In this document: positions 1,134-17,203 of the stretch, piece by piece | How positions within the stretch are numbered: position 1 is the first letter of the stretch | Layout: every line of letters begins with the position of its first letter | NCBI GenBank assembly: GCA_017506865.1 | Contig: JAFCMP010000279.1 | Coordinates: 558,001-622,000 of the forward strand | Direction: 5' to 3' | DNA length: 64,000 bases | Origin: Tribonema minus | Taxonomy: Eukaryota > Sar > Xanthophyceae > Tribonematales > Tribonemataceae | The notes under the pieces: generated by a model | What the model was told of the DNA's origin: nothing | What the model saw: only the letters and a program-made list of their open reading frames with translations | Database searches by the model: none | Made by a program: the position numbers and the translations under genes

Positions 1134-2136
1134 ATGAGTGTGGCTTGCGATGAAAACCATGCTCGCCACCTTCTTGCCGTCGTGGCTGCCGACGTCAACA
1201 GGCTGCAGGAACAGCATCCTTGCCTGGTCGGTCCTCAAGGTGAGCGGCAATTGCAGAAACTGGAGCTTACATGATGATGCAGAAAGCTGTCGAACAAGCT
1301 CGATGAGGGCCATCAGTGTCAGCAGCATGCGGTGCAGCGAGTGCGTGCGCTATATTACACTAGCTGATGTTCGAGGCACAGCTTGCTGCCGGGTGGGACT
1401 GTGTTTGACGTGCTCTTGGTTCTCATCATGAATCTTCAACCAGAGAGTTGCAGCAGACAAATGGCAGCATCAGCGTTCGCATGATTGATCCTGCTCTTTC
1501 AACTCTTGCTTGACCCTGGTCGTGTAACTTTTGCCTCGTTGCGCAGATGATCGGCGGCAGCGTGCACCAGATACTGCAGCCGCATGTGGAATTGCAGCTT
1601 GAGAATGCAGACAAGATTCTGGCGATCCTGAAGGGTGTGTTCGCCTCCTCACCCTCACAGCCTGTCAGGCCCTTAGCCGAGAGGCCGCAACTGATGCTGA
1701 ATTTTGTGCACGCCGCCGTGATCAGTATGCAGGCCTGCTACAAGCGCCCGGGCAAGCAGCAGGCAGTACGCAAGTCTAGTGAACTGGCTTCCACGGAACC
1801 CCCTGTGCAGCGCCACTGCCGGAATGCCCATACCCCACCTGCCACCGCCAGCGCTGTGCTGATATCTGAGCCTGGGCGCGCCGTATTGCAGATGCTGGGG
1901 CGGGGGTACTGGCTGCCTGTGGCAGGGGTGAGCCGCGGCGTGCGTGCGGCGTACACGAGAGAGCTGCTCGAAGGAGGCGGCGACAGCAGCAAAGGCGGCG
2001 GCGACAGCAGCAAAGGCGGCGGGTGTGCGTGGCTGTGCCGCACATCTCTCAGCGCTGTGTTACAGTCAGATGCCGTGTTCCGCATGGCCCTGGACCTGGC
2101 GGTGCCTGCTGGAATGGATTCCGCGGCGAAGATCAA
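1134..2136 (+). CDS. Putative gene of unknown function (partial model)
   Basis: I do not recognise this gene. The best exon is 1547-2136: it follows a good acceptor (ttgcgcag), is open, and ends at a good donor (AAT|gtaagc). It encodes a helical-looking segment (VHQILQPHVELQLENADK), then VISMQACYKRPGKQQAV, and later two direct GGGDSSK repeats. A possible first exon, 1134-1239, begins at an ATG, reads RHLLAVVAADVNRLQEQHP and ends AAG|gtgagc. Its phase does not match the 1547 exon directly, so at least one exon between them is missing or the model is wrong. The final donor opens an intron into which the MITE and retrotransposon would fall. Downstream exons were not identified; a link to the ankyrin-like gene at 15857 is possible but unproven. 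Confidence 0.35.
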
Positions 2137-2263
2137 TGTAAGCCCCAGTAGTGCTTGAATGTAATTTTGAACCAGTGCACCTTTATCCGCTATGTGTCGC
2201 GATTGCCAGGTACCGTCTTTATCGACAATTAAGGCCACTGGACGTCTTTTTGGTACCCAGCGT

Positions 2264-2352
2264 TGTGGTGCTCCTGGCTTTACCACTGAGCTAAAAAGCT
2301 TGTGCACACTTGGCAGGGTAGCCGTCCCCTTCTGGGGTGCCAGGATACCACA
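2264..2352 (-). repeat. 3' LTR (89 bp)
   Basis: Exact copy of 14575-14663. It is flanked outside by gcgt (2260-2263) and inside by a G-rich purine tract in element sense. Confidence 0.85.
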
Positions 2353-2366
2353 TTCCCCCCCCCATT
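2353..2366 (-). other. Polypurine tract of the LTR element
   Basis: Immediately before the 3' LTR the element-sense strand is a run of ten G followed by AA. This is the expected place and composition for a plus-strand priming purine tract. Confidence 0.65.
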
Positions 2367-2604
2367 ACCTAGGCTTGGTCCCTCAAGCCACCGATCGGGG
2401 CTACAGATCGCGACTATTACGGCTTGCTGCCAACGCGACCCGTGCCGGGTCCTCGGAGGATCGCGACTATTACGCTTCGTGCAACGCGCCTCGGAGTGAC
2501 TGATCGGGTGGCTGCTGGAGGTGAATGGTTTTGCCGAACGGGTGTGGGGCTCTCACGGGGAATGATTGACACGTGTCTAATGGGTGGCCGTCTGGGCGCA
2601 AGGA

Positions 2605-2690
2605 AAGAACCTGCCTCCAACAGGATTCGAACCCGGCCGTTTGTAGCGGAACCAACTAACGTGGTTGCACTACACGGTCAATGACGAACA
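2605..2690 (-). other. tRNA-like / PBS-like block in the element's 3' non-coding region
   Basis: In element sense this holds GGGTTCGAATCCTG, a perfect tRNA T-arm/box B, preceded by GTTGGTTCCGCTACAAACGG. The latter resembles the primer-site region at 14550-14574 (GTTGGTTCCCGGTACGAAAG). I could not fold a full cloverleaf because the acceptor strands do not pair, so it is a tRNA-like relic or mimic and not a tRNA gene. Confidence 0.4.
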
Positions 2691-3053
2691 GAGCAGACAG
2701 CACACTGACACCTCACAGCACCTCTAAAGCAAGTGTGTGTGTTATCAGGCTATCGCTCACTCTGCAGTGACAGAAGAGATCACCCAAATCAACCAACTGT
2801 AACCGCCAATCCAAGAACTGTCTTGGAACTGTCCCAAACTTGAAGAAGAGACAAGTTGAACCAGGTGGCACCAATCCAGTGGCACCACAGTCACCCCCCC
2901 TAGGGCTTTGCTAGGCCCGAGAACAGAGAAGCAACCATGACTTCACTATGCGTGATTACGACACGACACAAGTGCAAGACTTGCACCCTAGAACATGTGA
3001 ACTGTCTCTCACCCAGCGCACATGCGCTATGCACGAAACACATGAATGCTATA

Positions 3054-6000
3054 CTACTGCGATGCAATGCCCTCAAACGCAGCAATCTGTGTCTTGCTAC
3101 CACACAGAAACCAAGTGCCTTGCGGTGACGTAGGCTCGGTGCCATACGTGTCAGCGTCAAGTGACAGCAAAGAGTACTTGCCCTCATCAACCCAGAACAC
3201 CCTAAGACGCGGTGCCTGTTTGCGTGCGCGGGCTGCGGACTGCACTATGCCCACGACCTCCCCCTCATGCCACTGTGTATACACTGCACCGTCAGAAGCA
3301 GTCATCTGGTATACCACCATGATCTGCATACCCCTGACAGCGGTGCTGAGCAATGCCTTGCTACTGGGTGCCCACATGACAACATGCGCGCCGGGCGCAA
3401 GCTCGTATGACCCCCGCCCACACACAGCTAAGACGCCTCCGATGCCGCGCTGTTTCTCCGCCTTGCGCAGCGCCCGCCTGACGACCTCCGTGCCGGCGCC
3501 GTCGATCGCGAAGTCATCGCGCAGGTCGGCGGCGCGGCTCAACGAAGTCCAGTACTCGTGCAACGCCGCAGGGCACGCGTCCATGTTGAACGCGTCCTCC
3601 CAAGAATTGGCAACGTCGCCCTCCCAGCGTACGAGGTACTGTAGGCGCTGCCCGCGGCTGCGCGCCTCCGCAACAAGGCGATGGCGCAGCACTGCCTCCA
3701 CTCCGTGACGCTCAGGGTCGGCGATGACGTCATCGGCAGTGAGTGAGCCGGGCGATCGGCCGTGCCAATGCTTGGCAAGCAGGTAGCGGGCAAAGCCGGC
3801 TGGCAGTGTGCCGGGCGGTCCCTCGCTGTCGTTGGTGGGGTCACGGCACAGCTTGACAAGGTGGCGCGTGACGCGCGTGGGGCCCTCCTTCATGTCGATG
3901 ACCAGCACACCGGATTGCACCGGCTTGCCGCCGAAGACGCTTGGACCGACGGCGAGGACACGATAGGGGCCCTGCCAGCGATCGAGCAGCTTCTTGCTGA
4001 ACAGCGTCCGAAGTGGCGTGCCGAACGTAGGTGAAGTCCGGTCGAGGTCGATGTCGCCGGCGGCAGCATGCGTGCGCGGCGCATGGTAGTACCACACGCG
4101 CTCGCCTGCCGCGTAGTGTGTGCGCAAGCCGAAAGCGCGCGCGAGCGCCTCGTTGTCCCGCAGCACACGGTCGCGACGCAGCGCATGCCGCTGAGCAGCA
4201 ACATCGTGCGCGGCACGCTGGCGCTGCGTGAGCTCCTGTACAAGGTGAGCTACGGAGGGGCTCGTGCCTGGGGGCGCTATGGGCTTCTGCAACCTGCCTA
4301 GAAGGAGATGTAAGGCGTAGTGGGCCTCACGACCGGTGGCAAGTAGGTATGGAGTCGCGCCGGTTGCGCGGTTGTGTGCCGTGTTGTGCGCAAAAGCAAT
4401 ATGAGGCAACCAATCTGGCCAATCCCCCGCTGCACTATCGACTGTCATTGCCAACATTTGTGCCAGCTCCTGCATGAAGCGTTCACACTTGCCGTTACAC
4501 TCAGGGTGATATGCGGTAGTGCTCAGCTTGCGCATACCCATCTGCTGATAGAATGCGCGTGCAAGGGCCGACATGAAGATGCTGCCTCTATCGCTCAGGA
4601 GTTTGGCAGGTGTGCCATGGAGTGTGCTGTGCTGGTTGACTAAGATGTGAGCCGTGCCAACAGAGTTGAAGTTGTCTGGGGTGATAGGATAGCACCACAC
4701 CCAGCCACTATACAAGTCCATGACTACTAGAATGTAAGCGTGGCCGCTGTTACTGAGGGGCAACGGGCCAAAATGGTCGATAGCGATGGTATGAAAGGGA
4801 AAGGGGGGTCTCTCACGCCAAACGAGGGGGTGGCGCGAGAGTTTGCCAGTGTTCTTGTACGCCTGGCAAGGCCAACAATGACTAACCCAGTAGTTGACTG
4901 TGCGCGTCCAACTAGGCCACCAACAATGTGCACGTACACGCTCTAGAGTGCGTTTGATGCCCTGATGACCTGCCCATGCACTACCGTGAAAGGCATCTAG
5001 AACAAGGGCACGCAAGGAGCGGGGCACGACGATCTGCGCGACGTTGGGGGCGTCAGGGGGGTTGCGCACTAGCAGCTGACTGTCTCCACAGGCGCGCAGA
5101 GTGCAGTGCTGCGCCCATTGCTTCACCTGTGTAGCAAGCGCCGCGTCATGAGGGAGCGCGCCATCGGCCAAGAAGGCGTGTAACGCGCCAAGCTGCTCAT
5201 CCGCGCACTGCTCACGCTGCCAGTCACCGGGGGTAAGCCGCCCGAGCTCCTCGTGCTGGGCAAATGCATCGCACGCGCCCGGAGCCACGCCCGCCGTCTC
5301 CGACATAGCAGCTATCTCCGCCATGCCGCCCCCTTGCAATGCGTCAACAATGAGCATGCAAACCTCCAAGTACTCGCCGGTTGCGAGTGCCTCAAGGCGG
5401 TGGGCGTCGACGGCCTCCAGGCCGTACGCGTGCAGGAGCCGCTCGCGCGTCGCCTCGGCGGCGTCCGCGGCAGTTGCGGGGAGTGGGTTGCGGCTCGGAC
5501 CGTCGGCGTTGCCGTGAGCGCTGCCCTTCTTGAACACCACGTTGATGTCGAAGGCTGAGAGGAACTCGGCCCAGCGCCCGCCGCGCGCGGTGCGCTCACG
5601 GATGGACTCCATGTACTGCAGTGCGCGGTGGTCGGTGTAGAGCGTGAAGGGGGTACCCCACAGCATGTGGCGGAACTTCTTGATGCCGTTGACGATCGCG
5701 CCAGCCTCCAAGTCCGTGGTAGACCAGTTGCGCTCGTTGGGCAGCGTCGCGCGCGAGGTGAAGGCGATGGGCTGCTCGACGCCATCGACGTCAGCCTGTG
5801 ACAGCACAGCGCCGAAGCCCTCCTTGCAGGCGTCGGTGGCGAGGATGAAGGGGCGCGCGCCGCTGGCGGCAGCAGTGTAGTCGGGGTAGCGCATGACGGT
5901 GTGCAGCGCCAATGCCTCGTTGACAGCGCGCATGGCGCGCCGCTGCTGGCTGTCGATGTTGAACTCCGCGCCTTTCGCCATTAGAGCAGTGAGAGGGGCC

Positions 6001-7511
6001 ACTAGCTGAGCCATGCCGCGCACAAAGCGGCGGTAGTAGTTGGCGAGGCCTAGCCACGCGCGCAGCTGCGAGAGGTTACTGGGCTCAGGCATTTCTAGCA
6101 GGGCTTGGACTTTAGAAGGATCAGGCCTGATGCCATCTACGCCGACAATGTGGCCCAGAAACTTGACGTGCTTGCAGCCTACGTGGAGCTTGGCGGGGGC
6201 CAACTTCATACCGTGCTGCTCAAAACGGGCAAAGACACCCTTAAGGTCGCTGAGGTGCTGATCGATGGATGTGCTGGACACTATGACGTCATCAATGTAG
6301 GGCTGTACGCGATTAAGGCCCGCGAGCACTGTCTGCATGAGGCGTGTGAAATGTCCAGGCGCACCGGCAGCACCCTGGGGGCAACGTAGCCACTCATAGA
6401 GGCCGAACGAGGTCACCATAGCGGTGAGGGGGATGGCGTCAGGGCTGATGGCAGAGGTGAAGTAGCCGCTCGTGATGTCCATGGTGCTGAAGACAGAGGA
6501 CCCACCAAGACTGTTGAGCAAATCCTCAATGTTGGGGATGGGTATCTGTGGCACTATTGTCTGGGCGTTGAGCTTCTTGTAGTTAACAGTGATGCGTGCT
6601 GTGCCGTCTGGCTTGAGCACTGCCACTACAGGGGATGCCCAGTTGGACAGAGAGGGCCGTATGATGCCAGCCGCAAGCAGCTTGTCAATCTCAACTTTGA
6701 TGAGTGCCGTCATCGCAGGGGAGTACCTGTAGGGGCGGTCGTGGCACGGCATAGTGCCCTCCTTTAAGTCAAGGCGGAAAGGCAGGGCATCACAGAACCC
6801 TACATCCCACTTATCCTTAGAGAAGGTTTTGCTGGCGTATTCTGCCAACATGAAGCACAGCCGCGCCACTTGGTCCGCATTCCACCCCTCAAGGTCCACG
6901 CGCACTGCCAACATATGAGCTGGCAAGCACTCGCGAGCCTTGTCTAGTGCTGCATTCACCTTGGGGTCTATGTGAGCATAAGTCCCCAAAGCAACGCCAC
7001 CACTATCAGGTATATGTACTTTTGCATCCCCCTGCTCTGGCTCAAAGGAGATCGACTCACCCAGCTGCTGCTGCAGCGCCTCGCGCACCGCTGCCGCGTC
7101 CATGGGAGCCGCTCCAGCGTCCGCGTCAGTGTTCGCGTCTCTAGTGCGGCTCCACTCCTCCGTGCGCATGTCCAGCGAAAAGATGCCGCTGAGCGCATTG
7201 CCACCACCTTCACCCCCCCCCGAAGAAGTGCCATTTCCCGCCGCTGCGGCGGGCTCCGCCGCCGCAGCGCGCGTTAAAGTAGGCAATGACGGGGCATGCA
7301 CAGCTGCTGCTGCGGCGGGAGCCGCCGCCTCAGTGCTGCGCGCAGGTGATGATGTTGTCGCCGGCGCCACCGCGGCCGCCGAGGCCGCGGCGCGCGCGCC
7401 GTGCGTTGAAGTGCAAGCTGATGCCATCACACGTGCCGCCGCGGCAGGAGCCGCGCGCGCGTGCTGCGAACAAGTAGGCGTCGGTACCGCCGCTGCTGCA
7501 TCCGGCGCAGG

Positions 7512-7542
<31 letters not shown>

Positions 7543-10500
7543 GCTGCTGCTGCTGGCGGCGCCGTCGCCGCCGCCGCTGCTGCCGCGGACTGCGCTGCTG
7601 CTGCGCGCACCTTGTCGGGCGCGCGAGGCAATGCCGACGCGGCAGCACCTGCCGCCATGTCGCGCATGCGCTGCCTTGCTGCAGCTGCGAGCTTGACGCC
7701 GTACGTGCCGAAAGCGACGTGCGTGCCGGTGTTGATCAGCGTCTGAATCTCAGGTGGCAGGGTCCGCGCCGCTTGCTCTGCAGCGTCATGGAAGACGCCG
7801 CTCTGCTGCAGGATGTCGCCAACCAGCTCCGCCATGCGCGGCGCCACCGCATTGGCAAGGTACTGCGCATATGCGGCGACGTCGCCGGCCTCCGGCGCGT
7901 CCCACTTGTAGGTGGCAGGAAAGCTGTGAATTGCGCGCAGTGCTGACCACGGCAGATGCTCAGCGCGCGCAAACTCGGCCGGGTCTTGAGTGGCATCCTT
8001 TGGACGCATGGTGCACTGTACACCAGTTGGCTTGGGGTCGCGACGGTAGGTGCTGCCGCGCGTAGTCGGCGCTGGTCCGTCCATGCTGTAGACCTGCTTG
8101 GAGAGACGGTTGCGGCCAACTGACGTGAAGAGCTGCCGCTGCTGACCGCTGCTGTCGGGTACGTCGCCGGTGACCTCACGCACTGACTCGTACGCGGCTC
8201 CGGCCTTGGCAAAGGCCAATAGCTCGCGCGCGTGCGCCATGGACGCGCGCATGCGCGCGCTGTCATGCTCGCCGCTGCCGGGCCGCGCTAGCACATAGAA
8301 CACGCGATGGCGCGTTTGTGCAAGGTGCGCGTCGTCCCCACGAATGTACAGCGCCTCCTGTAGCGTAAAGCCGCCGTGGTGAGCGCACCGCAAGAACTCC
8401 GTGAGCTCGGGCGCGCTCTGCAAGCCGGGCACGTTCTCCAGCAGAAGCAACCGGCAGCAGTCTGCGCCCATGGCAACCTCCAACATGTAGTACAAGTGCT
8501 GGATGCCAAGTGCCGTTAGCCGCGTGCCGGCATACGAGTAGCGGGTGCATGGTGGGCTGCCAAAGAGCACCTGCGCCTGTAGGCGCTGCATGGCAGTGAT
8601 CAGCTCGCGCCGCGTCTCTGGCAGCGCCATGTCGCGCCGCAGCGTCTGCGTACCGGGGTGATTAGCGCTGTAGATGTCCAGTGCGCGCTGTTCGTGGTCG
8701 ATGGCGAGGGCGATGTCAGCGTAGTGGCGGAGGCCCTCCGCCATACCGCCGGCGCCGCAGTATACCTCCACGGCGCGGGGGCGGTCGGCATGCTCACGGT
8801 GCATGTCGTCGGCAGGTACACTGCGAAGTGGAATCGCCTTGCCGAGCACTGTGCCACGTGGCAGGCTGAATGGAACGTTGGCGCGCTGCTGCAGGAGCAC
8901 TGGCTTGGCAAAGGTGCCCGTAGCTAGCTCCGTGCTGGCGACAGTATCTGCATGGGCTGCTGACACCAGGACCTGTACCATCTGCTCCGCCGGGGCTTGC
9001 ACTGGTGTTACGCCGTCTGCCTCCATGACCTGAATCCACACTGGTGTGGCGGACTCAGCAGGTGTCTCCGGTGAATGCGCGTCCACACGCACTACTGCCA
9101 CCCACTGCTTGTCAGTGTCGTATGCGTAGCACGGGGGCGTAGGAGATGAGTAGGCTGCAGAGTCGCTTTGTGTGGGCTGGGCCTGTGGATGAGCGCTGCC
9201 GAACTTGTACTCAGTGCTGCCAGGTGGTGGGGACTCGTCGCTGCCAAAGCCGTACAAAGGTGTGTTGGCGGCAGTCCAGGGGTGACGGTTGATGAAGTCA
9301 CGCCCCAGAATGAAGTCGTACGGCAGGTGCGGTACCACAAGCGCCATGACGGGAGCTGAAAGGCCATGCGTGCCGACTGCGCCGAACTGTAGGGCCACAA
9401 TGATGGTGACCTTCTGCGGGGCAGCACTGGTGTCGATACCGGCAATGCTGCGCGCTGCAGTCAGCTTCTGGACGTCGGCACTGTCAATGGCCCCACCAGC
9501 TAGTAGACGCTCATAACAGCGCTGTGAGATGGCAGTTACTGACGCACCAGAGTCCCACAGGCTACGCTTGATGAAAGACGACCGCTGCGCGCGGGCTGAG
9601 CGCAGCCTACACCTGAAGAGGGAGTTCAAGTCAGCATGCACAGAGCCGCGCACCGCGTAGTACTGGAAGATGGCAGCGTCGCTGACACCAGGCCCGTGCG
9701 TGCGGCTCTCTGGCGTGTAGAGCGCTGAGATGAGGCCGTTGACATACACCGCGACGCGCGCTGCGTCCACCGCTGCCTCTTCTCGCCCCAAGCTGTCCAA
9801 GCCGTCTTCCGCAACATCGGCCAGCGTAGTGGAACCCCCACTATGATGCAACGTCGGAGTGGCCAGGCCGGCCCACTCGTCCTCGTCAATGCTCGCCTGT
9901 AGCTGACGCTGGGAGCGTGCCTTGGTCTCCTTCTGCTGCGCGTGTCGCTGCGCTGCGCACGCCTTGAAGTCTGCCCATTGCGCGCGCGCCGAGGCGTTGC
10001 TGCTGCCGGTGGCGCCAGTTGAGGGTGTCTCCTTTGGCGCCGCCGCCGCCGCAGCCGCCGCTGCTGCTGCCGGTGCTGCCGGCGCTGCCGGCGCCGGCGC
10101 CGCCGCCGCCGCCGCAGCAGCTGCCGTCGCTGATGGCGCAGCATGCTGGCAGAGGCGCAAATGTGCAGCGTCGGTCTGCCGTTCTTGACATGAGCGCAGC
10201 AGTAGCACGGTATAGTATGGGTCTTCACCGGCTTGGGTGTGCACAGCAAGGATCTTGGCAGGCTCGCCCTCCGCTGCACCCTGCTTCAGATATGTCACCA
10301 GCGCGCCTTTGGTGAAGGTAGCGCTGCCGTCGCCGCATGCGGCTGACCTTGAAGTAGGTGCTGCTGGGCTTGGAGCAGAAGGTGATGAGGTTGAAGTTGA
10401 TGCAGGTCGTGATGAGGTTGAAGTTGATGCAGGTCGTGGTGAAGCTGAAGTAGATGCAGCGTGCGCCATCGCGGGCGCCGCCGTCGTTGATATTGCTGCC

Positions 10501-11240
10501 GCAGTTGATGGGGCAGCCCCCACCCCCCCTTGATCGCGAACGTCCCCTGAGCCAGCGCAGGTCGCTGATGCGCGCCGCGCCGGCGTGCCGCGCTGAAACG
10601 CAGCTGTCCCGCGCGCCGCCGTAGCCGTCGCGGAGTTACTGTAGGGGGTCGCGAAGCCAGCCGTCTTGAGGTCTTGCTGCGCCGCGCGGCGGTGCCACGC
10701 GCGCTGCTGAGCCCCTGATGACGATGCAGGTATGAAGGGCGAGGCGGCGGGGCGCAAGTTGCTACCTGCACGCAGAGAAGATGGTACCTTGGGCGCCGCT
10801 GGCGCCGCAGCGCTCCGTGGCGCTGCTGCTGACAGTGTGTGTGCGGCGCTCACCGGCGCCTTCACCGCAGTAGAATGCGCCGCGAGCGGCGCGGCGCCTG
10901 CGAGCGCCGCTGCCGTCGCAGCGCCTTGGAGCGCAGCTGCTACAGATGTTGCGAGCGGTGGCGCCACCGTAGAAGCTATGCCCGCCGCCGCTGGGGCGGC
11001 GGCCGCAGGCGCCGCCGCCGCCGCAGCTGAGGCGGCGCCTGCCGGCGCCGCTGTCGTAGGGAGATAAGGCGGTTGTTGCCGCAGCTGTGATGCTGCCGCT
11101 GCAACCACGAGCGGCTGCTGCTGCTGCTGCTGTTGACCAGCTGCTGCAACCGCGGGCGCGCCGTGCGCGCTGACTGCCGTCCGGGGCGGGGCGTCACTCC
11201 CGCCCCCCGTAACACTAGGACCCCCAAGTGCTCTCCCCAC
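3054..11240 (-). CDS. pol: pol frame: protease, cytosine-5 DNA methyltransferase, RT, RNase H, integrase, chromodomain
   Basis: An open frame of about 2700 residues. Domains in order with rough residue numbers: Ala/Ser/Pro-rich N-terminus to about 470; aspartic protease with DSGAS at about 560; C5-cytosine methyltransferase at about 820-1160 with motif I (VEVYCGAGGMAEGL), IV (GSPPCTRYS, catalytic PC), VI (LLLENVPG), VIII (QTRHRVFYV), IX-like (ALRAIHSFP) and X-like (YLANAVAPRM); a long poly-Ala/Pro linker; reverse transcriptase with YIDD at about 1648; RNase H (FILATDACKEGFGAV, LYTDHRAL); integrase with an H-C zinc finger and a D,D-E core (IAIDHFGPL at about 2155, LLSDRGS, HPECNGKCERF); and a chromodomain-like end (LQYLVRWEGDVANSWED at about 2537). 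The methyltransferase lies inside the polyprotein frame, not beside it. The family normally has no such domain. Confidence 0.92.
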
Positions 11241-11267
11241 GCCGAGGGCTGGCGTGGGGTCGCACCC

Positions 11268-14200
11268 CTAGGTGTTGCGCCCGCCGCCGCCGCGGCTAGC
11301 GCCGCCACCACTGTAGCCGCCGCGGCAACCACCGCGTCCTCCGCCGTTGCCACGCCTGCTGAATGCCGCCTGCGCCGACCTGCCGCGTTCCCCCCGTTCT
11401 GCACCCTGTACCGCCCGCGCGCATAGCTGCTTGAAGTCTTCAGCGCTGCTCGGCCGGAACTTGACCACCCACGGCTGCCGCTGGACCGCTGCGTCCCAGT
11501 TCTCAGCGCTGTAGTCGGCGTCGCACCGCGCGAACACGTGCTCAGTGCTGCCGCAGTTGAAGCATGCGCAGGTACGTCCCGGGAGAGTGTTGCAGATCTC
11601 GTAGATCGCGTACTGCACTTGGCAGCGCTGCTGCTCCTCGTGCGCGGCCGCCCTGCGCGCCTCCTTCTCAGCAGCAGCGGCGATGTTGTCGCGGTTTGGC
11701 TTGCTAGGCAATGACCTGCCTGCACCGCCGCCGCCGCCGCCGCCTCGGTTGAGCCCTTTGCCGTAGGAGACCAGGTTTGTGGGATAGACAGGGCGGTCTT
11801 CCAGGGGCGCCGTAGAGTAGTGGTCAGCGCCCTGTGCCTCCTCCGCCAGGATCGCAAGTAGATCCGCCGAGCGTGCCGTGGGCTCTAGGATGGCCTGCTT
11901 GTAGGGCCCTGAGATGTAGGGATAGTGGTGGCGTATGATCCGCTGCAGTGCGGTGACCACGATGTGGTCAAGAGACTTGTCCAGCGATGTGGCGATCTGG
12001 GCGGCGTCTGAAAACTCCACGATGAAGTATTTGAGCGCCAGCCCTTGACGCAGTGACCAGTTCATCAGGTTGGCAGCCACCGCGGTGGGCTCCTCAATCT
12101 CCAGGAACTTGGCGATTTTGGTGAAGAGCCATGAGAGTAGCGCGCCGTCGCGCAGGCCCTGCTCACTGCCCTGCATCTCCCACGAGGCTGCCTGACGGGC
12201 CAGCATGTTGAGCCGTGGGTGATCGCCGCCGCCGTCGGCTATGCAGTTTACGATGCTGTAGACCGCGGTGACGTACCACTCGCAGCCAAAGTCGTCTGCA
12301 TTGCACAGGGCAGGCCACAGCGGCCTCTGCTTCTGCCGCAGAGCGAGCGCCGCCGACCGAAACTTGCCAGGAAGCTGCCGCTGCAGAGAGGTGAGAGCAG
12401 AAATGTTTCCCTGGTCGACCTTGGTCTTAGGGAAGTGCTTCTCGTCCAGTGTGACCGCAAACCGCATGTTTGCATACCCCTCTGAGTCGAAGCCTGACAG
12501 GTCTCCCGCCCCTGCTGCCGCCACTGCTGCTGGTGCTGCTGCGGCCATGGAGGCGCGGCGCGCGCCGTCGCCACCACTGCTCGGGGCGCCGCTGCTGGAA
12601 CCACCGTCATCACCACCTTCGCCGCCACCACCATCGCCGCCGTTGCCGCCAATGCCATCGCCGCCGCGGCGCACACCACCTAGACTGGAAGTGCCGCCGC
12701 CGCCGGCGCAACTGTTGCGCGCGTGCGGCCGCTCAGACTTGGCCGCGTCCAGAGCGCGCCATTCAGCGCGTAGCTCAGCCTGTTGCGCGTCCAATGCACG
12801 CTGCTGCGCATCCCTTTCGCGCTGCCACAGCGCAGCCTGCGCGCCAAACTGTGACTGCTCGCTACGAAGCACCTGCTGCTGGTTCAGAGTCTGCTCCTGT
12901 TGAGCCCGCTCGCGCTCGCGACGCGCCGCCGCTGCCAACGCCTCTGCTTTCACGTCACGCTCACGCTGCGCCGCCACTGCCAGCGCCTCTGCATGCATCT
13001 GCTCCGCTAGGCGGCCCTGTGTGGTCTGCGTATGCGTAATCGTGTATGTAGTTGGGTGGCGTGCCTGGCGCGCCGCGCCCTCCAGCTGCGCGCGCGCATC
13101 CGACTTCAGCATGTCCATCTGGTCACGCTGCTGCGATGCCGAGTCAAGGTCAGTGCCGCGAAGGGGCACATATGGCTCTGGTGCGGCGAACATGGATTTG
13201 TAGGCAGCTGGCTGTGGTGCGGGCGCATTGACGGGTATGGTTGCCGCGAGCGATGATGATGGTGCGCCGGCCGAGAGCGCTCGCGCGGGCGCAATAGCCG
13301 CAACAGAGGGCGCCGGTGAAGCAAGCGACGCCGCAGGTAGAGCCGGAGGCCGAGGCAGAAGCGCGGAACGGGCGCTGCGCATGGAGCGTAGGTCAACGTC
13401 CTGACGGATAGCGCCACCCTCGCCAAAAGTGCGCAAGTTTCGCTCACTGAGCTCAGCGCGCGAGGTAGACTCAGGCTGCTCAAGCACGCTGCGGTGTGTG
13501 GACTCCGACGCGGGTGTGGAAGAGCGAGGCGCCCGCGCCTGGCGTAGCTCATCTACCGCCGCCGTCAGCCCGTCTGTACGGCGTGTGAGGTTCTCAACAC
13601 AGTTCATCGCAAGCTGGTGGTTGCCCTTGCCGGTCTTCATCACCTCATTGAGTTGCTGCTGCAGGACCTCAACCACCAGCTCTGCATTATCTGCGCGCGT
13701 TCCGTTGCTTTTGGCCCTAGATTCAGCCAATTCCAGACGCCTCTGGAAGTTATCCATCTCATTACGTAAAGCTGCTGCAAACTGTGCGTGCACGCGCTCC
13801 TGCTCACCTACAATGTCCTGTAGGCCGATGATCTGGTCTGTTGCTGTGGCGTACCTGTGCTGCAGGTCGCCGATCAGGCTGACGGCCATGCTAAGCGGGG
13901 CGAGAGTAAAGCCGGCTCTCAGCATCTCCCTGATTTGCTGGTTATAGTCCAGCTGCTCCTCACCCCCCCTTTCCCGCAGGCCGTCGGGTGTGGAAATGTA
14001 ACCATCATGACGGTGATCGCGGAAGCAGCTGCTGCCGCCGGTATCGACGCTGGCGGTTTCCAGGGCGTCGTTGATGGTGTTGCCGATGCCCACGGCCTCG
14101 CCATGGACAGATATATGCTCCTCGCTACGGGGCGCCCCAGCGGCCAAGCCGAGACCACCACTGGCGATGGAGCTCCTCGCCGATGTGCTAGTTGCAGACA

Positions 14201-14513
14201 ACTGGCGATCGTCTGCTGCTGCACCGACGTAGGTTGCACGAGGAGAGAGACCCAGGCCAACAAGGGCGTCCTGCCGGAGCACAGCAGGCGGCACAGTTGC
14301 GGTCGTTGTCTCGTCGCCGTGGCTAACTGGCTGCAGCGGATCCTCCGCCACAGCAGGGACAGCGAAGAGGCGGTGCCCGGCCTCTCCATTGTCGACTTCA
14401 CGCGCAGTGGTCTCAGTCTTCGCCTTCTCGGCGGACCAATTGCCTAGGAGTGGCGAACCTCGGTCGGCAAGAGACGTGCGCGTGCCATGCGGGCGCTCTC
14501 TGTTAATCGGCAT
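11268..14513 (-). CDS. gag: gag frame of the Gypsy element
   Basis: A long open frame (about 1080 residues) at the 5' end of the element. The N-terminal half contains heptad-rich, probably coiled-coil stretches (LQDIVGEQERVHAQFAAAL and neighbours) and an Arg/Glu/Ala-rich helical region. The C-terminal part has a zinc knuckle, CFNCGSTEHVFARC (C-x2-C-x4-H-x4-C, near 11540-11575), and an RGG-rich tail. By family knowledge it makes the nucleocapsid/particle protein that packages the RNA. It is longer than usual for Gypsy gag. It lies just upstream of the pol frame; the family commonly links the two by recoding. Confidence 0.85.
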   Translation of the reverse strand: MPINRERPHGTRTSLADRGSPLLGNWSAEKAKTETTAREVDNGEAGHRLFAVPAVAEDPLQPVSHGDETTTATVPPAVLRQDALVGLGLSPRATYVGAAADDRQLSATSTSARSSIASGGLGLAAGAPRSEEHISVHGEAVGIGNTINDALETASVDTGGSSCFRDHRHDGYISTPDGLRERGGEEQLDYNQQIREMLRAGFTLAPLSMAVSLIGDLQHRYATATDQIIGLQDIVGEQERVHAQFAAALRNEMDNFQRRLELAESRAKSNGTRADNAELVVEVLQQQLNEVMKTGKGNHQLAMNCVENLTRRTDGLTAAVDELRQARAPRSSTPASESTHRSVLEQPESTSRAELSERNLRTFGEGGAIRQDVDLRSMRSARSALLPRPPALPAASLASPAPSVAAIAPARALSAGAPSSSLAATIPVNAPAPQPAAYKSMFAAPEPYVPLRGTDLDSASQQRDQMDMLKSDARAQLEGAARQARHPTTYTITHTQTTQGRLAEQMHAEALAVAAQRERDVKAEALAAAARRERERAQQEQTLNQQQVLRSEQSQFGAQAALWQRERDAQQRALDAQQAELRAEWRALDAAKSERPHARNSCAGGGGTSSLGGVRRGGDGIGGNGGDGGGGEGGDDGGSSSGAPSSGGDGARRASMAAAAPAAVAAAGAGDLSGFDSEGYANMRFAVTLDEKHFPKTKVDQGNISALTSLQRQLPGKFRSAALALRQKQRPLWPALCNADDFGCEWYVTAVYSIVNCIADGGGDHPRLNMLARQAASWEMQGSEQGLRDGALLSWLFTKIAKFLEIEEPTAVAANLMNWSLRQGLALKYFIVEFSDAAQIATSLDKSLDHIVVTALQRIIRHHYPYISGPYKQAILEPTARSADLLAILAEEAQGADHYSTAPLEDRPVYPTNLVSYGKGLNRGGGGGGGAGRSLPSKPNRDNIAAAAEKEARRAAAHEEQQRCQVQYAIYEICNTLPGRTCACFNCGSTEHVFARCDADYSAENWDAAVQRQPWVVKFRPSSAEDFKQLCARAVQGAERGERGRSAQAAFSRRGNGGGRGGCRGGYSGGGASRGGGGRNT

Positions 14514-14554
14514 GCTGTCGCTACAGCAGTAACTGACGGTCTAATGGAAGGCCG

Positions 14555-14572
14555 CTTTCGTACCGGGAACCA
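14555..14572 (-). other. Primer-binding-type site of the LTR element
   Basis: Two bases inside the 5' LTR the element-sense strand reads TGGTTCCCGGTACGAAAG. The leading TGG is what a site complementary to a tRNA 3' CCA end requires. The primer tRNA is not identified. Confidence 0.5.
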
Positions 14573-14574
14573 AC

Positions 14575-14663
14575 TGTGGTGCTCCTGGCTTTACCACTGA
14601 GCTAAAAAGCTTGTGCACACTTGGCAGGGTAGCCGTCCCCTTCTGGGGTGCCAGGATACCACA
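14575..14663 (-). repeat. 5' LTR (89 bp)
   Basis: Identical to 2264-2352. It has TG...CA ends within a longer imperfect terminal inversion (TGTGGTATCCTGGC against GCCAGGAGCACCACA). In element sense it contains TTTAGCTCAGTGGTAAAGC, which matches the D-arm/box A of a tRNA gene. Eighty-nine bases is very short for the LTR of a 12-kb Gypsy element. Confidence 0.85.
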
Positions 14664-15163
14664 GCGTAGAAAGGGGGGGTGGACGTGGGTCATGTGGTGC
14701 GATATAAAAAGGAGGACGCATTTAACATCCAGCATGAACAATGAGTGCTTGCACTTCGCTCTTGTTGTGATTACTGCCGGGCCACCTCGCCTCCATATAC
14801 CGTCACCGACGTTTTCAGGGTCACGCTTGAAGTTGGCCAGTGTTTTAGGCCAGAGCGGACCCCTGTAAGCCACCGCCAGGCTCTGTAAAAGCCGAGACAG
14901 CTGCTATGCTACTATTGCTGCTTGTTACTACTCGAAAGCAGCGTTTCTGCGGCTTCAGCTTTTTGCTGCTAGCAGCAGCAAGGGAGCATCGCGCTCACGC
15001 TGCATCTATGCGGCGAAGCGACTACAGCATGCAAAAAGGGGGGGGGGGGGGGGGGGGTGAACGTACTTTAGTGCGGGTCAAGAAAGAATGACTTCGATTT
15101 ATGTTGCTTTGATAAAAACTAATAATAAAGCGTCAAGTGGCCTTAATTATCGACAAGACGGTA

Positions 15164-15856: not shown

Positions 15857-17203
15857 AACGCTGGTCTGCTGCGGCTGCTTGAGGAGAGCCCAACTGCAAG
15901 GCGGGTGGTGGGCAAAGCGCAGCTGTCGTGCGGCCTGATTCGAGATGCGGTGACAGCAGGACTGCCGCTGGATGGCCACACGCTGGTCGGCGCTGCGGAG
16001 CGCGGCTGCGAGGCAGCGCTCAAATAGTGGCACACGTTGCTGTCAGAGAGCCCTTGGTGGCTCGCACAGAAGGCTTGGGTGCTGCCGGTGATGGCGCTGC
16101 GCGCGTTGGACGCCAAGGAGCGCCCATCGGTGCTGGCAGTACTGCGGTGGGTGTTCAGGACTGCTACATGGCAGGTCGGCGGTTCCACAAGCGAGGTGCA
16201 GTTGCCACCGCTGCTGCTCACGGTGCTGGCCTTCAAGTGTGCGGCAATTGGTGACTTCAATACGTTTCACTGGCTGCACGCAGACGGTCAGCAGCTGACG
16301 AAGCAGGATATACATGCGCAAGTCCCAGTAGCAGACGCCAACGCCTTCAGACAGGCGATGGGTCCGCTTGGCGCTGTCAACGCCTTCGCTCCGGCGATGA
16401 GCTCGTCTGGCACTGTGCACACAGACCTGTTGTACTTTATGCGGAAGAGGCATGACGCCGTCTCGCACACCTTCATGGATATCGCCATCAGCTGTGGGCA
16501 GCAGGAGTTTGTCACATTGCTCAGCCGCTCTGACGTCAGCGCTCCACTGTCGACCTTCACGCACCTCAGCGCAGCAGTTGCTGCTGCCAGCAATAGCTTC
16601 AGCCTGCTGCAGTGGCTCCATGCGCACCCCGGTTGCACATTCAACAACCATCAGGTCACTGACCAATTTCTGATGACGCATATTCATCCACGGCATTTGT
16701 CGGGGACTGCAGCCATGGAACAAAACACCCTAGAGCTGAAGTGGCTGCGCGACATCGGCGCGTTCCAAGCCGTGACGCAGACGGATCTGACGCACTTGGT
16801 CATTATGACCGCAAAGGCTCACGCAGCCTGGCCACGTGGGGTTTACGTGGTCAAGCTCAAGTGGCTGCTGGGTGAGATGGGCGCCGAGTGGCCCGACGGT
16901 GGTGCAGCGCGCATCGTGCGTGCCGTGGCTCACGAGCATCGGGCCCCGGATCCACGCTCCGTGGTGTGCCTGGTGTCAGAGCTTGGCTGCCCATGGGGGC
17001 CGTGGACGTCAGCGGAGTGCGAAATCATGCGTAGTAACGCCGAGCGGATGCGTAGTAACGCCGAGTGGCTCATCGCGTCACCGAGTGAGCGTGCAGAGTT
17101 AATGCGGCGGCTGCATGAGCTGGGTTGCCCGTGCGCGTGCGCGCGGCCCGACGGCGGCGGCGACAACGGTGCTGCTGCTGCGCACGGCGGAGGGGGCGCT
17201 TGA
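15857..17203 (+). CDS. Ankyrin-like repeat protein, interrupted by one in-frame TAG
   Basis: An open frame starts after an acceptor-like tatcag at 15856 (first residues NAGLLRLLEESPTARR), meets a TAG at 16025-16027, and continues in the same frame to a TGA at 17201-17203. From the next ATG (16037) it encodes 388 residues. Degenerate ankyrin-type helix-turn-helix units are visible: FKCAAIGDFNTFHWLHADG, DIAISCGQQEFVTLLSRSD, AAASNSFSLLQWLHAHPG, LELKWLRDIGAF, VKLKWLLGEMGAEWP and LMRRLHELGCPC. This LKWL...GCPW style is common in expanded protist ankyrin families. Near 17028-17063 an 18-bp unit (RSNAEM) is doubled, and the C-terminus is Gly/Ala-rich. The single TAG in otherwise conserved-looking frame means a recent pseudogene, a stop removed by splicing, or readthrough. 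The true first exon is not found. Confidence 0.65.

Follow-up and report, generated by a model that had tools for sequence, protein, structure and literature searches.

Evidence for a conserved C5-cytosine methyltransferase in the Pol of chromodomain-bearing Ty3/Gypsy elements of Tribonema minus, and a proposed role in methylation of element cDNA

Sequence comparisons support the presence of a conserved and genuine C5-cytosine methyltransferase (MTase) in the pol of a chromodomain-bearing Ty3/Gypsy retrotransposon of the xanthophyte Tribonema minus. We propose, with a probability of roughly 0.55, that this enzyme is a conserved module of Gag-Pol that would be made by translational read-through, packaged, and used to methylate the cDNA of the element itself. 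The copy from which the analysis departs lies in a stretch of 64,000 nucleotides (hereafter the window), and its features are collected in Table 1.

The initial annotation had placed a cytosine methyltransferase, with its motifs in order, in pol between the protease and the reverse transcriptase (RT), and this has been borne out. The Pfam family DNA_methylase (PF00145) matches pol at an E-value of 2.6e-16 and a score of 60.4 bits, where the cut-off is 22, in the interval between a weak aspartyl protease match and RVT_1. Motifs I, IV, VI, VIII, IX, and X are all present and in order, where we take EVYCGAGG, PPC, ENV, QTRHR, PAPTTR, and ANAV, respectively, to be these motifs, and the predicted fold is that of the C5-MTases. 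The domain had also been described as flanked by linkers rich in alanine and proline; this holds on the downstream side (residues 1143-1440) but not upstream, where residues 655-815 contain 26%, the same as pol overall. The PR-RT-RH-INT order of Ty3/Gypsy elements is present, with RT, RNase H, and the H2C2 zinc site above their Pfam cut-offs; the protease and the rve core fall under theirs, though the protease keeps DSGA. Pfam matches of pol to H2C2 and rve integrase instead of a tyrosine recombinase indicate that this is not a DIRS element. The chromodomain after the integrase is borderline (1.1 bits below its cut-off), and the top PDB matches of the region agree with it, being chromodomains (cpSRP43, Swi6, HP1). 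A study of a brown alga reports, in the sections consulted, that some chromodomain-bearing Gypsy lineages fall outside the chromoviruses (PMC12477816), which weakens the label "chromovirus" given to the element in the initial annotation. The gag frame returned no Pfam match at E-values up to 0.01. Beyond the element, positions 16037-17203 of the window hold a host protein frame with T. minus relatives at 40-73% identity and 64% identity to the protein P0024.

Table 1. Features of the element and its surroundings, in window positions (residues are those of pol)
Feature	Position	Strand	Basis or remark
Target site duplication GCGT (4 bp), left	2260..2263	.	
Second 89-bp LTR of TRIM-like repeat	2264..2352	-	identical to the first
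Internal part of TRIM-like repeat, 304 bp	2353..2656	-	near-identical unit in array L071
Element's own 233-bp LTR, 3' copy	2657..2889	-	sole one in the window copy
pol frame, 2728 aa (PR-MTase-RT-RH-INT-chromodomain)	3054..11240	-	open frame and Pfam
Chromodomain-like region, residues 2514-2565	3546..3701	-	Pfam 24.0 bits, cut-off 25.1
Integrase: H2C2 zinc site and catalytic core	4503..5027	-	rve core 31.1 bits, cut-off 32.6
RNase H	5550..5855	-	Pfam
Reverse transcriptase (RVT_1, residues 1542-1699), YIDD at residue 1648	6144..6617	-	Pfam and motif
Ala/Pro-rich linker, MTase to RT	6921..7814	-	41% Ala+Pro; dN/dS 0.50-0.56 vs three I-A2 copies
C5-cytosine methyltransferase domain, residues 823-1142	7815..8774	-	Pfam PF00145, motifs, fold, purifying selection
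Motif X, ANAV	7845-7856	-	sequence motif
Motif IX, PAPTTR	8058-8075	-	sequence motif
Motif VIII, QTRHR	8304-8318	-	sequence motif
Motif VI, ENV	8430-8438	-	sequence motif
Motif IV, PPC, catalytic cysteine	8547..8555	-	sequence motif
Motif I, EVYCGAGG	8745-8768	-	sequence motif scan of pol
Aspartyl protease, residues 561-652, DSGA at 563	9285..9560	-	E 0.0023, 18.9 bits, cut-off 28.2
In-frame TAG at gag/pol border	11268..11270	-	gag and pol frames in register
gag frame, 1081 aa; CCHC zinc knuckle at 11523-11564	11268..14513	-	open frame and motif
Internal-region start (GTTGGTTCCCGG)	14563..14574	-	presumed primer binding site
First 89-bp LTR of TRIM-like repeat	14575..14663	-	replaces the element's 5' LTR
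Target site duplication GCGT (4 bp), right	14664..14667	.	

The window copy lies inside another repeat, a nesting that the initial annotation had missed. The 89-bp repeats on either side are the LTRs of a TRIM-like unit of 393 bp that is found in tandem elsewhere in the genome, and they were rejected as LTRs of the Gypsy element, two other copies of which have LTRs of 233 bp. The first 89-bp LTR joins the element at the element's own internal start, and the element's single LTR, identical to both LTRs of those two copies (on contigs C66 and C312), leads into the internal part of the TRIM. The internal regions of element and TRIM both start with GTTGGTTCC, and the window copy has the look of an insertion in the TRIM at this point (2260-14667); the structure may have arisen when a form with a single LTR recombined with the TRIM at the shared GTTGGTTCC site. 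The TRIM-like LTR has at least 48 genomic matches (40 of 183 candidates scored). The repeat also carries TAGCTCAGTGG and GGTTCGAATCC, presumably the A box and B box of a tRNA-type promoter, which stand 42 bases apart and span the border of LTR and internal part; this suggests a pol III promoter. ARAGORN found no tRNA in the window or in the TRIM-like repeat, and an Rfam search of window positions 2000-3100 returned no match.

Related copies, which the initial annotation had proposed to look for, are plentiful. A domain search of the 158-Mb T. minus genome gave at least 122 matches, 119 of the 399 initial candidates having been scored. Five of those listed, the window's included, are 100% identical over 338 aa, and others stand near 94, 80, 65, and 37%. 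The five identical domains are all on different contigs; over about 4 kb, the C66 copy and each of the other four differ at one or two bases, and the window copy also has a gap of 63 bases. The C66 and C312 copies have simple LTR-internal-LTR ends, with LTRs of 233 bp identical within each copy and between copies, each pair bounded by a 4-bp target duplication (CACT and GTGA, respectively). The element has been mobile recently. Outside the assembly, the metagenome proteins P0001-P0009 are relatives at 34-82% identity; the T. minus protein P0011 holds a decayed fragment of the domain.

The domain is moreover found in diverged Gypsy lineages of the same genome, in other positions. The order protease-MTase-RT, which we call type I, covers the window family, I-B, and I-C; in the I-D group (contig C15), with an RT 36% identical, the MTase (33.6 bits) is again upstream of RT and, as judged by eye, follows the protease. 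Type II elements encode a gag carrying a finger and then, in order, the MTase, protease, RT, and RNase H, as read at two loci (L051 with L073, L061 with L074) where the protease match is weak (23.3 and 14.5 bits); at L077 and L078 the MTase scores 45.5 and 52.3 bits and the protease, judged by eye, is downstream. The type II RT has at least 104 genomic matches (103 of 631 candidates scored), one of which (G000:C311:6700-7911) sits within a 6208-aa open frame, roughly double the usual size. At three type III loci the distance from the MTase down to RNase H is about 3 kb, and on contig C509 the MTase (57.8 bits) is downstream of RNase H in the same frame, an order with which the coordinates at a C112 locus agree. 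At least three polyprotein slots of the MTase are seen: downstream of the protease, between gag and the protease, and downstream of RNase H. Among types I, II, and IV the RT is 28-31% identical, and lineages with such RTs of about 30% identity also have an MTase above the Pfam cut-off. At three loci picked on their RT, where no MTase had been noted beforehand (L076, L077, L078), one was found each time, though elements that lack it may well exist. Tentatively, and at somewhat less than even odds, we suggest that a C5-MTase of perhaps prokaryotic or phage origin is a standard module of diverged Gypsy lineages, either captured repeatedly or moved between slots, and that methylation of cDNA, together with the chromodomain, is a regular part of their replication.

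The MTase is under purifying selection. By the Nei-Gojobori method, its dN/dS against three I-A2 copies is 0.068-0.076 (335 codons, dS about 0.4), with 0.16 for the protease and 0.03 for the RT stretch, and against I-A3 it is 0.145, the linker reaching 0.765. In type II (L051 vs. L062), the values are 0.128 for the MTase, 0.189 for the spacer, and 0.059 for the protease. Against I-B the contrast between MTase and linker is gone (0.247 vs. 0.271), and against I-C, where dS is saturated, dN/dS is undefined or 0.71. This constraint bears on where the enzyme may act. Were the MTase to act in trans, on the DNA of the host or of rivals, whether by epigenome spreading, silencing of competitors, or defense against DNA viruses, the benefit to the element would be indirect; the high copy number of both the domain and the type II RT is in keeping with such a role, and an anti-viral function of transposon methylases has been proposed in the sections consulted of one study (PMC6338049). 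However, a shared gain selects only weakly per copy, yet the constraint on the MTase is strong, and we consider action in trans unlikely.

With respect to the class of the enzyme, the best matches of a PDB profile search were an E. coli enzyme encoded by a prophage (E 2.5e-10), DNMT2 (1.1e-9), and DNMT1 (1.2e-8). No DNMT3 was among the 51 PDB sequences found at E-values up to 10, and another C5-MTase query likewise gave none at E-values up to 0.001; the 50 matches listed in the fold comparison also include no DNMT3, which says nothing against a DNMT3 class. Judged from these searches, the element enzyme would appear to have no support for membership in the DNMT3 class. The listed phage and plasmid sequences are 22-31% identical to the element domain. 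In a tree of 37 sequences over motifs I-VIII, with thin reference sampling and DNMT3, DNMT4, DNMT5, and DNMT6 absent, type I forms one clade with the metagenome proteins P0002 and P0009 (100/99), and types I-D, II, III, and IV form a second (97/91), joined at 96/94 by P0014, a metagenome protein that we take to be bacterial. A single clade of all element MTases has a p-AU of 0.38, or 0.47 with P0014, and a tree without the long rows has weak support. In this tree the element domains stand apart from DNMT2. A prokaryotic donor for type I was considered and not adopted: the prophage enzyme is the best match, yet DNMT2 and DNMT1 are nearly equal, and the fork in the tree stays open. Neither a protein-database search with the domain as part of the full-length pol, nor single-sequence and profile searches of prokaryote genomes, nor a search of viral contigs returned a match.

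Other C5-MTase genes were met in the T. minus assembly. Three stand-alone frames of 367-390 aa (L001, L002, and L003, on contigs C223 and C181) are possibly viral or host genes; of the PDB chains, M.HhaI is the nearest to L001, and both L001 and L002 lie apart from the element enzymes. A further locus (L004, contig C523) holds a DNMT2-homologue exon, which falls in the tree with human DNMT2 (100/99), without any element sequence. The element domain, too, might methylate RNA, either the element's own or its primer tRNA, as DNMT2 does tRNA. DNMT2 is among the top PDB matches, and RNA substrates have been suggested for SymbioLINE in the sections consulted of De Mendoza et al. (PMC5890265). Nonetheless, the half of the domain that matches DNMT2 is the general cofactor-binding half, and the element domains do not fall with DNMT2, which the T. 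minus exon does. An RNA target is therefore quite improbable.

Conservation of the motifs speaks to catalysis itself. PPC, EN[V/G], and the motif VIII pattern are kept in an open frame in 15 of 15 I-A and 15 of 15 I-B copies examined. Motif I is changed in three I-A-like copies (CSAGG in L014, FGAGG in L021, CGACG in L022), and motif IV is changed across lineages, reading STRC in I-D, GSNC in IV, APC in II-d, and TPC in II-b. These changes would suit a domain retained as a non-catalytic module for binding DNA or RNA. Against this, the motifs of the window copy are all intact, PPC is present in all 15 I-A copies examined, and the lineages with an altered motif IV still have a cysteine at that place, so that loss of catalysis is a very improbable account of the family.

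The association of MTase and RT was assessed in the best 65 of 106 type I RT matches (E-values up to 5e-152, 60-100% identity), compared with 101 of the at least 122 MTase matches: 60 of the 65 have an MTase on the same strand no more than 6 kb upstream. The five RTs without a linked MTase are on contigs C31, where the RT is close to the contig start, C235, where the MTase is on the opposite strand, C19, C109, and C54. Two RTs on contig C522 (C522:1907274-1910122), 0.4 kb apart and in the same direction, share one MTase upstream, perhaps through partial tandem duplication. That the MTase is an assembly chimera, or a passenger trapped once in one copy, is almost certainly wrong, odd as the nested window copy is in structure, given this linkage, five identical domains on different contigs, two of them with their own LTRs and target duplications, and a metagenome protein (P0008) with the same protease-MTase order as judged by eye.

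Traces of methylation are mixed. Heavy self-methylation could deplete CpG, and pol is not depleted (observed/expected 1.01 vs. 0.81 in window positions 15000-64000), which weakens the reading of self-methylation; the 233-bp LTR is depleted (0.37, five CpG). At synonymous third positions of the C66 copy and an I-A2 copy, C-T differences are commonest before G (39/147), vs. 14/133 before A, 14/63 before C, and 12/67 before T, and G-A differences 28/152 after C vs. 16/124, 4/34, and 15/105 in the other contexts, a slight excess. The type II pair (L051 vs. L062) gives 9/44 for C-T before G vs. 8/76, 2/21, and 2/39, and 18/50 for G-A after C vs. 10/66, 2/26, and 4/73. This excess in CpG context fits some CpG methylation of the copies, whichever enzyme is responsible, and it could come from host enzymes. 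DNMT5, HELLS, and a putative CDCA7 are reported from T. minus in the sections consulted (PMC10538959), so that one can test how methylation by the element and by its host interact.

How methylation of the element's own cDNA might proceed can be outlined. Since gag and pol form one frame split by TAG, the MTase would probably be translated together with RT by read-through, at a low level. It may then be packed into particles alongside RT and integrase, where the element protease may free it or leave it joined, and it would methylate the cDNA before or at integration. The methylated cDNA might pass as host DNA, or might arrive pre-marked for the chromatin sought by the chromodomain. Self-methylation, release by the protease, and insertion guided by the chromodomain had been raised in the initial annotation, and they are put forward here, too, as inference only. 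Methylation of cDNA has been proposed for DIRS elements by De Mendoza et al., who, in the sections consulted, discuss whether it hides the element from host recognition, protects it from editing, or acts on the chromatin of the insertion site (PMC5890265); the last is attractive here because the element has a chromodomain. According to the same sections, CG methylation was seen in yeast with two SymbioDIRS-Dnmt3 domains; with the charophyte relative none was seen, a result held to be inconclusive in that study (PMC5890265).

Cytosine methylation is usually a weapon of the host against transposons, and a conserved enzyme carried by the element contrasts with this. That such an enzyme recurs in one more remote group of eukaryotes, and there at three or more places in the polyproteins, argues that a retrotransposon gains from methylating its own cDNA; the many natural variants of the MTase offer a means to learn why. 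Retrotransposons bearing DNMTs, one Gypsy included, are already known, and the precedents in a charophyte and in dinoflagellates cited in the initial annotation are real (PMC5890265). Ty3/Gypsy and DIRS elements encoding DAM or DCM are said, in the sections consulted and with the elements unnamed, to occur in stramenopiles, among other groups (PMC6338049). The open-licence full texts searched, as far as their consulted sections go and with preprints left aside (PMC12542154 and PMC9998398 among them), describe no C5-MTase in a Gypsy element of Tribonema or another xanthophyte. In Ectocarpus, which lacks cytosine methylation, Gypsy elements likewise have a C-terminal chromodomain and an extra enzyme domain in Pol (NADAR); the main text of the brown-alga study uses "methyltransferase" twice, never for a C5 enzyme in Gypsy (PMC12477816). 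The SymbioLINE-Dnmt and SymbioDIRS-Dnmt3 of Symbiodinium are, like the present enzymes, borne by retrotransposons in many copies, and the two domain orders of SymbioDIRS recall the different orders across Tribonema lineages; their hosts, however, are LINE and DIRS elements, the latter with a tyrosine recombinase, whereas those of Tribonema are Ty3/Gypsy elements with a DDE integrase (PMC5890265). M.HaeIII, M.HhaI, and P0014 share the fold and motifs I-X with the element domain, but P0014 is only 25% identical, in the range of the phage and plasmid enzymes, and the element enzyme lies within a polyprotein. Also among the closest known systems is KnitGypsy-Dnmt3 of Klebsormidium nitens, a C5-MTase carried in Pol by an LTR Gypsy element that similarly has no introns, is under purifying selection, and keeps its key residues, as the consulted sections report (PMC5890265). 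KnitGypsy-Dnmt3 is of DNMT3 class and has DIRS-like repeats (PMC5890265), an arrangement not found at the ends of the C66 and C312 copies, the two in which plain LTRs were read. As far as the literature searched extends, what Tribonema adds to these systems is a xanthophyte, and thus stramenopile, host, a chromodomain partner, an enzyme without DNMT3-class support, and at least three polyprotein positions across the lineages of one genome.
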